From Syntrophobacterales bacterium (GTDB lineage Bacteria; Desulfobacterota; Syntrophobacteria; Syntrophobacterales; Thermodesulforhabdaceae), in the NCBI GenBank assembly GCA_026417655.1, contig JAOACS010000012.1:62001-126000 (forward strand): a stretch of DNA of 64,000 nt. The letters are read 5' to 3'. Shown one piece after another: positions 48,448 through 53,287 of this stretch. Positions within the stretch are counted from its first letter, which is position 1. Each line of letters opens with the position of its first letter. The notes beneath the pieces were generated by a model, which worked only from the letters and a program-made list of their open reading frames with translations, was not told where the DNA came from and did no database searches. The position numbers and the translations under genes were made by a program.

Positions 48448-49683
48448 TTAGATATTTTCAACAAATTCCATCACCCATGAAGCGTATAATCGAGATGCCC
48501 CAGAAAGCTCCCCCACAACCTTCAAAACGTTGGCTTCTTCAATGGGTTCTCTGTTCATTAGGCCCTCTTTAGCATGAAACAAAAATTCATCCAAGTTTCG
48601 ACATAAAATCCCTATGCCCCATTTTTCCAATATCCCATGTTCCACCTCTACTTTGTGAATGGATGGCCCGTAAAGCACCCTTTTCCCCCACACTGCAGGT
48701 TCTACAATATTGTGACCTCCGATAGGTTCGAAGGTTCCCCCACAAAAGGCTACATCAGCTATGCTGTAAAGATCAAATAGTAAACCGAAGGAATCAACAA
48801 CTAGGAGTGTAGGCTCTGTTCCATCGGTTTGGTTTTTCAGGAAGGTTGACAATAGGTTTACCCTAATATGCCTCTTCCTTGATTCTTTAATAATATCGTC
48901 GATCCTATTAAGATGCCTTGGGGCCATTATAGCGAGAATATCGGGAAAATCCCCCTTTAGTTTCTCAATAGCGTTAAGCACCATATGGCATTCTTTTCCT
49001 CTGAGATTTCCCGCTACGATAACAGGCCTGTCGTTGCCTTTTAGTATCTTTTCTCGCCACTTTTTTACCTTTTCTTTGCTACATTGCTTGTAAAGATCGT
49101 CATACTTGGAATTTCCACTAACAAAGGTTGATTCTAGGGATGCACCGAGAAGGATTGCCCGATCTCTATGGACCTGGGAGACCATGCCAAGGCGTGAAAA
49201 ATAACCAAAGATGGGTCTAAAGATTTGGGAAAAGGACCTATAAAAGATAAAGGATCTTCTTGAAATCCTTCCGTTTACTAGGATAGCAGGGATCTTATTT
49301 AGGCGAAGATATGAAAATAGCATAGGCCAATATTCTGCTTCGAAGTTTACGAAAAGCCTAGGCTTTATGGTTTTTACAAAGGCTCTTATAGAGATGGGGA
49401 TTTCAAGGGGTGCTGCTACTACAGCTAGAGAAGGATCCAAAGTTTCTAAGCCCTTTGCTTTACGATATGCTGTGGGAGTTCCCACGGAGATAATTATTGA
49501 TCCGGAAAAGCCACATTCTCTAAGTCTTCTCGTGAATGGAAAGACTCCGTTTAATTCACCAAGAGATGCTGCGTGGAAAATAATTCGAGGGAAAGCCTCC
49601 GGAAGGTTCTCTGGTGCTCCACGAAGTCGCTTCAGCCAAAATAATCGATCCTCCGCTGTTTTTAAGTGGTTCAGGACATTCAT
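48448..49683 (-). CDS. waaA: 3-deoxy-D-manno-octulosonic acid transferase without N-terminal anchor
   Basis: Adds Kdo to lipid IVA in LPS core synthesis. 411 residues. The GT30 N-domain has the catalytic Glu in [10 protein letters not shown] and [11 protein letters not shown]. The C-domain has [20 protein letters not shown], and the [16 protein letters not shown] nucleotide-sugar motif. Family members usually start with a membrane-anchoring hydrophobic helix; here the N-terminus is [20 protein letters not shown], charged and short, so membrane association is unclear. It overlaps aroC by four bases (ATGA). It supports a Gram-negative envelope. Confidence 0.93.
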
Positions 49684-50747
49684 ATTGGAAAGACTTTTCT
49701 TATAACTGTAGGGTGAAGTGCAAAGTCAGCTATCACAAGAAGCATCATAGCTTCACACACGGGAACGATGCGAGGTATGGCGCTTACATCATGGCGACCC
49801 TCTACAACAATTGTTGTTGGGGTTCCATCTCTTCGAGTGGTTTTCTGGGGGATTCGGATAGAAGGGATAGGTTTTACCGCAACTCTAGCGATTATCTCCG
49901 AACCACTTGATATACCTCCTAAGATCCCACCAGCGTTATTGGATTCATAACCTTCGGCTGTTATGGGATCATTGTGTTGACTTCCTAGCATATCAGCCGA
50001 ACGGAAGCCACTTCCTATTTCTACACCCTTTACAGCCCCTATGGACATGAGGGCGTAGGCGATTCTAGCGTCAAGTTTGTCGAAAACAGGCTCTCCAAGT
50101 CCCGGGGGGCATCCACTAGCTCTTATCTCTACTATGCCTCCAATGGAGTCACCCTTTCGGCGAACCTCTTCAACACGTTTTTCCATGAGGGTAAGAGCTT
50201 CGGGGTCGGGGCAATAGAAGGGATTTTGATCTATAAAACTTTCATCGTAGTTTCTGCAGTGAATCCCTCCTAGGGCTACCGTGTAGGCCCTTACAGTGAT
50301 ACCTGCGATTTTAAGCATCTTTCTTGCTATAGCTCCTGCCGCCACGCGGCCTACCGTCTCTCTGGCTGAGCTTCTTCCGCCTCCCCGCCAATCTCTAATG
50401 CCATACTTTTGTTCGTAAGTGCGATCTGCATGGCCTGGACGGTATAGATCCGAAAGGAGAGCATAGTCGGAGGATCTGGGATTTTCATTATAAACTATAA
50501 GAGATATAGGCGTTCCGGTGGTTTTTCCCTCAAAAATACCCGAAAGGATCTCAACTCTGTCCGATTCTTTTCTGGTGGTCGAAGCGATAGATCCTCCTGG
50601 CCTTCTTCGATCTAAATCCCTCTGTATATCTTCCCGAGAGATCGATATGCCTGGAAGACATCCATCAATTACAACTCCTACAGCGGGACCATGAGATTCT
50701 CCCCACGTGGTTATTCGAAAAAATCTACCAAAGCTATTTCCTGCCAT
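49680..50747 (-). CDS. aroC: Chorismate synthase
   Basis: Last step of the shikimate pathway, using reduced FMN. 355 residues. Signatures are [18 protein letters not shown] at the N-terminus, RADHTYEQKYG-type [37 protein letters not shown] with the FMN contacts, and GILGGISSG. The C-terminal [19 protein letters not shown] is typical. First gene of an aroC-waaA-larB-orphan run on the minus strand. Confidence 0.97.
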
Positions 50748-50814
50748 AAAAAGACCGCCTCCAGGGTAGTAATCTTCAAACTGAACCTATAACAGAAAAG
50801 TCCTTAAATTTAAA

Positions 50815-50843
50815 GGGCGGGTTAGATACCCGCCCCTTCACCT
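50815..50843 (-). terminator. Terminator of the duplicated-repeat protein gene
   Basis: Perfect arms GGGCGGGT (50815-50822) and ACCCGCCC (50828-50835) around a 5-base loop. On the minus strand they are followed by TTTAAATTTAAGG. It ends the repeat protein transcript before aroC. Confidence 0.72.
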
Positions 50844-50858
50844 TTTACGGAGTAGGTG

Positions 50859-51212
50859 TTACCTTACTTCCTCTCCGTAAAATCTTTCCCATTCTCCGTG
50901 AAGTCTATCGGTCCAGATGTCGCCTCCCCCACCTACAAAGTCTGATAGAGATTCAACACCATAGTGGGTCATCCACAAAGGTCTTCCAGTCTTTCTGAGT
51001 TCTTCAAACCTTATTTCCTTTCCAACCACTACTTCTGAAGTTTCCGACTCGGAGACCTCCTCTCCGTAATCGCGCTCCCATTCTCCATAAAGTCTATCCG
51101 TCCAGATATCTCCACCGCCTCCCAGGAAATCGGCGTAGGATTCAACGCCGTAATGGGTCATCCAGAGAGGTCGTCCTGTTTTTCTGAGTTCTTCAAAGTT
51201 GATCCGTTTCAT
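50859..51212 (-). CDS. Orphan protein built from two near-identical ~48-residue repeats
   Basis: Not recognised. 117 residues consisting of two copies of the unit FEELRKTGRPLWMTHYGVES-xx-DF-x-GGGGDIWTDRL-x-GEWER-x-YGEEV, joined by a Ser/Glu/Val linker. By eye 43 of 48 aligned residues are identical, while 20 of those 43 codons differ at synonymous sites, so the duplication is old and the protein is under strong selection. No signal peptide, no Cys, rich in Trp and Tyr. The start at 51212 was chosen for AAGGAGGG 6 bases upstream; an upstream in-frame ATG at 51254 lacks a site. Monocistronic, with its own promoter and terminator. Function unknown. Confidence 0.85.
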   Translation of the reverse strand: MKRINFEELRKTGRPLWMTHYGVESYADFLGGGGDIWTDRLYGEWERDYGEEVSESETSEVVVGKEIRFEELRKTGRPLWMTHYGVESLSDFVGGGGDIWTDRLHGEWERFYGEEVR

Positions 51213-51213
51213 G

Positions 51214-51230
51214 GTAACCCTCCTTGTTAC
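51214..51230 (-). promoter_or_regulatory. Hairpin presenting the ribosome binding site of the repeat protein
   Basis: On the minus strand GTAAC-AAGGAGG-GTTAC forms a 5-base stem with the Shine-Dalgarno sequence as the 7-base loop, one base before the ATG. It may expose the site, or it may be a target for RNA-binding control. Confidence 0.5.
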
Positions 51231-51256
51231 TTTGGGTTTACCTTTTATTTTCAATT

Positions 51257-51287
51257 ATTATATAATAATGTTAGGTCATCTTGTAAA
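51257..51287 (-). promoter_or_regulatory. Promoter of the repeat protein gene
   Basis: TTTACA (51282-51287) and TATAAT (51257-51262) are 19 bases apart on the minus strand; a TATATA two bases nearer to the -35 box is an alternative. The -10 region lies in the perfect palindrome ATTATTATATAATAAT (51254-51269). Confidence 0.5.
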
Positions 51288-51328
51288 GATTAGGTAGAGC
51301 TAATCCAAAACCCCTAGTTAAAAATCCC

Positions 51329-51357
51329 TTGATGGGCACCAACTAAGCTAGTATAAG
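51329..51357 (+). promoter_or_regulatory. Promoter of the MCP gene
   Basis: TTGATG (51329-51334), a 17-base spacer and TATAAG (51352-51357), 47 bases before the MCP ATG. It is of sigma-70 type and not the sigma-28 consensus common for chemotaxis genes. Confidence 0.6.
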
Positions 51358-51403
51358 AACAAATTGTTTTAGTTAGATCAAACATGGGGAGGGGGAATTT
51401 ATT

Positions 51404-53287
51404 ATGTCTTTGAGGCAGAAGCTTTTAATAAGTGGTATTTTGTGCATAGCTCTTCCTGTACTTACCCTTAGTATGCTGACCTATTCAAAAACCAAGGTCG
51501 AATCATCTAAGACGGCAGAGGTGAACGCCCTTAACATGAGTAGGATCATAGCCCTTGCTGTAAGGGACATCTTAGTTGGTCACCTAAGGCTTCTCCAGTC
51601 TTTTTCTCTTAATCCTATAGCGCCTAAGATCGCCCAAGGTGATTTGGAGAGTCTCGGCAAGGCTAATAACTCTTTAAAGGAACTTAACAAAAGGCTAAAT
51701 GAAGCCTACGAGGTGATATTTATTGCAGATGCCTCGGGAAACATAGTGGCAGATAGTGTTGATGGAGGGTATAAGAATATAAATATTGCCGACAGAGAGT
51801 ATTGGAAAAAGGCCATTAAAGGTTCTTCTACTATTGATAATATGGTATTTTCCAAGAAAACCCAGCAACCGGTCCTTCCCATTGGTGTTCCAATAACAGA
51901 CGACCAGGGGAAAGTGGTTGGAGTCTTAGCTGGAGCCTTAAAGGCAGAATCTCTAATTGAATTGGTAACGAAGCTAAGGATCTCCGAAACAAGTTATTCT
52001 TTTATGCTTGATCAGACTTCTACGGTGATAGCCCATCCCGACAAGAGTTTGATTATGAAACTCAACGCGAAGCAGACCCAGGGGCTCGAAGAGCTTGGCA
52101 ACAAGATGACGAGTGGCCAAGAAGGGATAGTAAGGTATACATTTAGGGGATCCGAAAAGGTTGCGGCCTATGCCCCTGTGGGAATCAATGGTTGGTCTGT
52201 GGCGACAACTCAAACTGTTGCTGAATTCATGAAAACAGCGATAAGTATTCGCAATACGACTATCGTTGTAGCGGCTGGTTTCCTCATTTTAGGTATAGCT
52301 CTTATTTATGTTCTAGCCGCCTCTATAACGAGGCCCATATTTCGTATTTCCAAGGGCCTAATGGAGGGAGCTAATCAGGTATCGATAGCGGCAGAAGAGG
52401 TTTCTGGATCGAGTCAAACCCTTGCGGAGGGAGCTTCCCAACAGGCGGCCTCTATTGAAGAGACGTCGTCGGCTCTTGAAGAACTCGCCTCCATGACCCG
52501 TCAAAACGCTTCAAATGCCGATCAGTCAGCCTCTCTCATGAATCACACAGTACAGGCCGTTGAAATGGCTCATGACGCTATGAACCAGATCGCTCAATCG
52601 ATGGCAGAGATTGCTAGAGCGAGCGATGAAACCCAAAAGATCATAAAAACTATAGATGAAATAGCCTTTCAAACTAATCTACTCGCCCTTAATGCTGCCG
52701 TTGAAGCCGCTAGGGCTGGAGAAGCTGGAGCAGGTTTCGCTGTTGTAGCGGATGAAGTCCGTTCTCTTGCCATGAGAGCTGCTGAAGCGGCAAAAAATAC
52801 AGCCAAACTGATAGAACAAACCAGTAGTAGAGTTCGTGAAGGAGTTCAGGTTGTAGAGAAGGCTTCTCGGTCCTTTGCCGAAGTTAAGAATTCGGTAGGA
52901 AAGGTTGGTGAACTCATCGGGGAGGTTTCAGAGGCTTCCAAAGAACAGGCGGAAGGGATTGACCAGATCAACAAAGCCATTTCAGAGTTAGATAAGGTTG
53001 TACAGAAAAATGCTGCTACTGCAGAAGAAGCTGCTGCTGCAGCGGAGGAGTTGAATGCCCAGGCTTTTCAGATGAGAGATTATGTTTCGCAGCTTCTTAC
53101 AGTTATAGGTTCAAGGGCTGCGGAGGCTCAGAAGATTCAGCTCACGGATCAAAAATCTATTTCTAAAAGAAAGATTTTACCTAAGCAGATTTCCAAAGCC
53201 AAAGGGGAACCTCCTCAAAAACCAGTAAAAGCAAAAGAAAAGGAAATAAGACCCGAAGCTGTCATTCCCCTTGATGAGAATTTTTAG
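51404..53287 (+). CDS. Methyl-accepting chemotaxis protein with double Cache sensor
   Basis: A 627-residue transmembrane chemoreceptor. One helix at about residues 8-28, an extracellular dCache region (about 35-275, with [20 protein letters not shown] and [18 protein letters not shown]), a second helix (about 280-305), a HAMP segment, then the signalling domain with the tip [39 protein letters not shown]. An Ala-rich repeat precedes the C-terminal Lys/Pro-rich tail, and no CheR-tethering pentapeptide is seen. The ligand is unknown. GGGGAGGGGG lies before the ATG. No che genes are nearby. Confidence 0.95.

Follow-up and report, generated by a model that had tools for sequence, protein, structure and literature searches.

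A putative stand-alone, tandemly doubled Hsp20 N-terminal arm in a Syntrophobacterales genome

The window analyzed here, a stretch of 64,000 nucleotides from a Syntrophobacterales bacterium, carries a short gene whose product consists of two very similar halves. What kind of protein this is, and what its doubling might mean, are the questions raised by the locus. The initial annotation had described an orphan protein, possibly a new small domain. The open reading frame is intact, running from an ATG at 51212 to a TAA stop codon at 50859-50861, and ends directly after the second unit. Its parts are as follows.

50859..51212, minus strand: gene, read as two tandem copies of a free-standing unit of the Hsp20 N-terminal-arm type (open reading frame and translation, 117 aa)
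51051..51203, minus strand: unit 1, residues 4-54, INFEELRKTGRPLWMTHYGVESYADFLGGGGDIWTDRLYGEWERDYGEEVS (alignment; family HMM E 4.5e-32)
51015..51050, minus strand: 12-residue linker between the units, ESETSEVVVGKE (translation)
50862..51014, minus strand: unit 2, residues 67-117 (44/51 identical to unit 1; family HMM E 2.8e-28)

Of the 44 residues that the units share, 21 are specified by different codons, a recount close to the 43 identities over about 48 residues, 20 with different codons, given by the initial annotation. Nucleotide identity between the units amounts to 74.5%, with 9, 4, and 26 differences at the first, second, and third codon positions. Since synonymous divergence is saturated (pS 0.77) while nonsynonymous divergence is low (pN 0.114), the duplication must be old and held by selection, just as had been proposed. 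The protein is acidic (pI 4.8), contains 5% Trp and 5% Tyr and, as annotated, lacks Cys; the gene is the only copy in a genome of 2.3 Mb.

The claim that no known family is matched was borne out as well: the window protein gave nothing significant against Pfam, NCBIfam, PHROGs, PADLOC, or PDB sequences, no relative was found in the phage, plasmid, and viral collections, and PF00011 (Hsp20, alpha-crystallin domain) found no match in the 117 residues. A scan of the genome collection with the single protein as query was equally without a match; the same scan with an alignment as query retrieved 16 loci. Within the order, assigned by record names (Desulfosoma, Desulforhabdus, Desulfoferrobacter, and Syntrophobacteraceae MAGs), a family profile matched 21 of 39 genomes. 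Of these 21, 18 have full-length matches, the window's own included; the remaining three carry broken or truncated copies. The 17 further genomes with full-length matches encode short single-unit proteins, mostly of 55-75 aa, with two copies in four of these genomes, so that the gene is not the orphan it had been taken for. The window gene is itself a short free-standing open reading frame with the family core RPLWM…LGGGGD…DRL…EW, and the start of its linker resembles the acidic tail closing the single-unit relatives. Twelve columns are invariant among the 22 sequences of the family alignment. Purifying selection acts across the stand-alone family: pN is smaller than pS in 253/253 pairwise unit comparisons, and close pairs have pN/pS values of about 0.1-0.2.

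In the unit tree, every arm-only row from the order falls into a single clade (support 100/100). Units 1 and 2 are sisters (support 96/90), their nearest neighbors being the single-unit proteins of genus g8, one member of which is an uncultured Desulfosoma record; the duplication therefore belongs to the window's own lineage. The profile search found no copy of the gene in any of the other four genomes of the window's family, one of which is of the same genus. Frameshifted copies were found in two genomes of one related genus (G005 and G019; L042 and L043) and a truncated copy in G017 (L019). Absence or breakage in relatives had been named by the initial annotation as telling against its reading; both occur, and the gene is therefore useful but dispensable. 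A frameshift read by eye near the start of the full-length match in G018 (L009) belongs with L042, L043, and L019 to a picture of repeated loss in the order.

The origin of the unit emerged from searches beyond the order. Whole-genome searches covered one phylum, and in this phylum-wide profile search the matches outside the order included N-terminal arms of Hsp20 proteins, with E-values down to 1e-9 per genome. The matched arms directly precede the Pfam HSP20 domain, as exemplified by MTVPALKKGRRPSWMTPFGQEGWGDVWFDRLWPEWRRDLGEEWSP, which is followed by the alpha-crystallin domain. An hhalign comparison of the arm-only with the Hsp20-arm alignments yielded a probability of 98.5, an E-value of 2.1e-15, and 53% identity over 43 columns. 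Both sets have the consensus RPxWMT…GD[IV]WxDRLxPEWxRxxGEE and eight invariant columns in common; what chiefly sets the arm-only form apart is an insert of 7 residues that ends in GGG. It is thus highly probable that the unit and the N-terminal arm of an RPxWM-type Hsp20 subgroup are homologous, and the notion of a new small domain was not supported. On the strength of these alignments, the window protein is read as a stand-alone, tandemly doubled Hsp20 arm without an alpha-crystallin domain. The partner-binding role proposed earlier survives in altered form.

Arm-only proteins are also found outside the order, where they lack the Gly-rich insert (L079, L080, L116, and L117 in G060 and G131; L135 in G487). 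G060 and G131 each possess two arm-only paralogues with C-terminal tails such as CEEECVCC and CEDACACE, all under the promoter motif of the family described below. G487 harbors an armed Hsp20 and an arm-only gene in one genome. A decayed second arm lies about 70 nt 3′ of L135, and this locus is possibly a snapshot of either arm duplication or hsp20 truncation. The tree, resting on 51 columns, is compatible with a single or a repeated origin of the arm-only form and with either direction of change. No armed Hsp20 with a related arm was detected by profile searches in any genome of the order. The window genome encodes three Hsp20s; the one bearing the promoter motif was considered as a carrier of the family arm, and its arm proved unrelated in a profile comparison.

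A second line of evidence stems from the upstream regions. The strict motif TTGACA-N12..14-TGnT, nearly always with a spacer of N12, precedes 13 of 27 stand-alone and 8 of 20 armed hsp20 genes, shuffled sequences averaging 0.05. The longer version TTGACA-N12-TGnTTA is rare. In G012, a genome of 4.5 Mb, its single site is the stand-alone gene's own promoter; in the window's genome (G000), it occurs once, as the promoter of an hsp20 gene; 14 other genomes contain 0-11 sites each. Among 30 readable sites, three lie before groES, two before grpE, three before hsp20, and one before a stand-alone arm. Judged by these downstream genes, the sites have the makeup expected of a heat shock regulon, and the motif points to a heat shock promoter signature in this bacterial group. 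Others of the 30 sites (see motif loci L137-L162, with L143, L148, L150, L153, L137, L161, and L162 deserving mention) precede genes for a bifunctional-nuclease-domain protein (3) and the uncharacterized genes for a Cys-rich DUF6811 protein (2) and a methyltransferase (2), which suggests that these are further heat-shock-linked genes in the phylum. An Escherichia coli-type sigma-32 promoter (CTTGAA…CCCCAT) was considered; the regions preceding the stand-alone genes did not match it consistently. In agreement with the heat shock character of the motif sites, heat shock genes of delta-proteobacteria have been reported to be preceded by sigma-32-like promoters (PMC545781), and the candidate proposed there for grpE-dnaK, CTTGAcA-N13-aCttAT, has the same TTGACA-to-TTA spacing as the family motif.

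The window gene and its nearest relatives in genus g8 have no exact motif upstream. The best match of the window gene is degenerate (9/11 positions, TTTACA-N13-TTATTA) with a spacer one base longer, and it falls within the candidate promoter at 51257..51287. A heat-shock link of the stand-alone family is likely, with the window gene itself contributing the degenerate motif only. Its flanking signals are the following.

51257..51287, minus strand: candidate promoter TTTACA-N19-TATAAT, beginning 75 nt 5′ of the ATG
51219..51225, minus strand: ribosome-binding site AAGGAGG (sequence)
50812..50838, minus strand: terminator-like hairpin of 11 bp with a loop of 5, followed by a short T-run (z -3.35)

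The initial annotation had assigned the gene its own promoter and terminator. The promoter is plausible and the hairpin 3′ of the stop codon real (-25.8 kcal/mol); the T-run is short, and a terminator scan made no call. The hairpin said to carry the ribosome-binding site did not hold up, its fold being insignificant in a 71-nt stretch (z -0.73) as well as in its 41-nt core (z -1.77). An RNA thermometer at this site was likewise rejected, given the insignificant Shine-Dalgarno hairpin and the lack of an Rfam family match. Separately, a small hairpin of the GAGAA…TTCTC type lies about 20-40 nt 5′ of the ATG, just 5′ of the ribosome site, in three related genomes (L002, L003, and L004), with bases changed among them as read by eye.

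The gene appears to be monocistronic, in agreement with the earlier description of a gene standing alone. On its 5′ side, the opposite strand encodes a methyl-accepting chemotaxis protein (51404-53287); on its 3′ side, its own strand carries aroC (49680-50747). The two were named by reading their translations. In four family relatives (L118-L121), one of the same genus, aroC faces divergent genes reading as clpS-clpA, and this place is occupied in the window (49680-51404) by the gene described here and the chemotaxis receptor gene. The differing neighbors of aroC therefore indicate a rearrangement at this junction. The search for an operon partner led nowhere: neighbors vary among relatives, glyQ lies near the gene in one subgroup only, and a "shared neighbor" at six loci was noise from antisense and low-complexity open reading frames.

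What might such a protein do? AlphaFold returned no confident fold (pLDDT 59.6 for one unit and 42 for the whole protein, with low-confidence helices only), a result that would suit a flexible binder and, because the alignments are shallow, is no proof of disorder. Arms of Hsp20 proteins are flexible and have been implicated in contacts with unfolding clients, as described for Hsp21 (PMC5427286), and removal of 17 N-terminal residues from AgsA abolished its activity towards MDH (PMC2920228). The papers found contain no demonstration of chaperone action by an arm alone. By analogy, the window protein would be flexible. Its conserved segments RPLWMT and DIWxDRLxxEWxR, aromatic and amphipathic in character, would attach like Hsp20 arms to the surfaces that proteins expose on unfolding, and the solubility of the complex would be maintained by the acidic linkers and tails. 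The multivalency of Hsp20s normally comes from the oligomerizing alpha-crystallin domain, which is missing here; two units per chain could replace part of it by covalent linkage. We put the probability that the protein is flexible and binds unfolding proteins bivalently at roughly 0.5. Put more broadly, the gene probably encodes a free-standing peptide that protects proteins and is linked to stress. Any role is conditional, since the other members of the family lack the gene and some relatives carry it broken.

The bivalent client binder was judged the most likely reading, with a modulator of Hsp20s or a docking tag next. As a modulator, the free arm would bind the alpha-crystallin domain or co-assemble with the cell's own Hsp20 subunits, thereby tuning oligomer size or client access. 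Homology of the unit to Hsp20 arms, the three Hsp20s of the window genome, one of them under the family promoter motif, and the presence of both gene types in G487 would suit this proposal. It is nevertheless unlikely: Hsp20s with the family arm were missing from the profile searches of the order, arm-only and armed forms occur mostly in different genomes, and the unrelatedness of the one own-genome arm compared weighs against simple co-assembly through like arms. Slightly less probable still is that the RPxWM/DRLxxEW motif, in armed Hsp20s too, serves as a docking tag read by a disaggregase, the Hsp70 system, or a protease, in which case the doubled protein would be an adaptor. The motif varies less than a generic sticky arm would be expected to (12 invariant columns within the family, eight shared with Hsp20 arms), and the promoter motif of the family is common to grpE and groES; against this, no conserved partner gene adjoins the family.

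The new ligand- or partner-binding domain of the initial annotation, if foreign to proteostasis and secondarily acquired by Hsp20s, would agree with the lack of a curated family match, with the apparently monocistronic gene, and with a tree that permits gain or loss. The promoter motif held in common with chaperone genes and the homology to Hsp20 arms tie the family to heat shock instead and render this explanation improbable. Patchy presence, the damaged copies in G005, G019, G017, and probably G018, and the decayed tandem copy adjoining L135 are what one might expect of an hsp20 gene that had been stripped of its alpha-crystallin domain and survived as a relic without function. Yet the low pN/pS in close pairs, the excess of pS over pN in every pair, the conservation of both window units despite saturated synonymous change, and the promoter motif conserved in many relatives make a relic very improbable. 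The precursor of a ribosomally made, modified peptide with repeated Trp/Tyr/YG-rich cores, hinted at by a weak match to an NCBIfam daptide precursor (E 0.0017), is likewise very improbable: this match scores 17.8 bits against a curated cut-off of 40 and recurs in one of 22 alignment rows (E 0.12), the homologues read have no evident modification enzyme as a neighbor, and conservation extends over the whole unit, unlike in a leader plus core.

It is the alpha-crystallin domain that defines small heat shock proteins, and the function of the arm without this domain is usually studied with truncated constructs. Since the defining domain is absent, the window protein is not a small heat shock protein; should the client-binder reading hold, it would work like part of one. 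No description of a natural arm-only family was found in the literature searched, the coverage of which was partial. It is tentatively proposed that the Hsp20 arm by itself constitutes a natural class of chaperones or adaptors linked to heat shock, which possibly arose more than once and was made bivalent here by tandem duplication. If so, a conserved arm-only family in single and doubled form, many members of which have promoters of the chaperone type, would allow one to ask directly whether the arm suffices for client binding and, by comparing single with doubled arms, what multivalency adds.

Among known systems, the closest comparison is with the RPxWM-type Hsp20 arms of the same phylum (e.g., L068 and L128), which share with the window protein the core RPxWMT…GD[IV][WF]xDRLxPEWxRxxGEE and its N-terminal position, and many of which have the same rare promoter motif as the stand-alone family. 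In contrast to these Hsp20s, the window protein has no alpha-crystallin domain, and it features an insert of about seven residues (ADFLGGG) before GD, an acidic tail, and two units. The arm-only proteins of G060/G131 and G487 resemble it in being a stand-alone arm followed by a stop codon; they differ in lacking the insert, in lying outside the order, and, in the G060/G131 copies, in their Cys-rich tails. The single-unit Syntrophobacterales relatives are free-standing and have the same unit with the GGGGD insert at 44-71% identity. These often carry the exact TTGACA-N12-TGnTTA, absent at the window gene, and they comprise one unit only, whereas the window protein has two.
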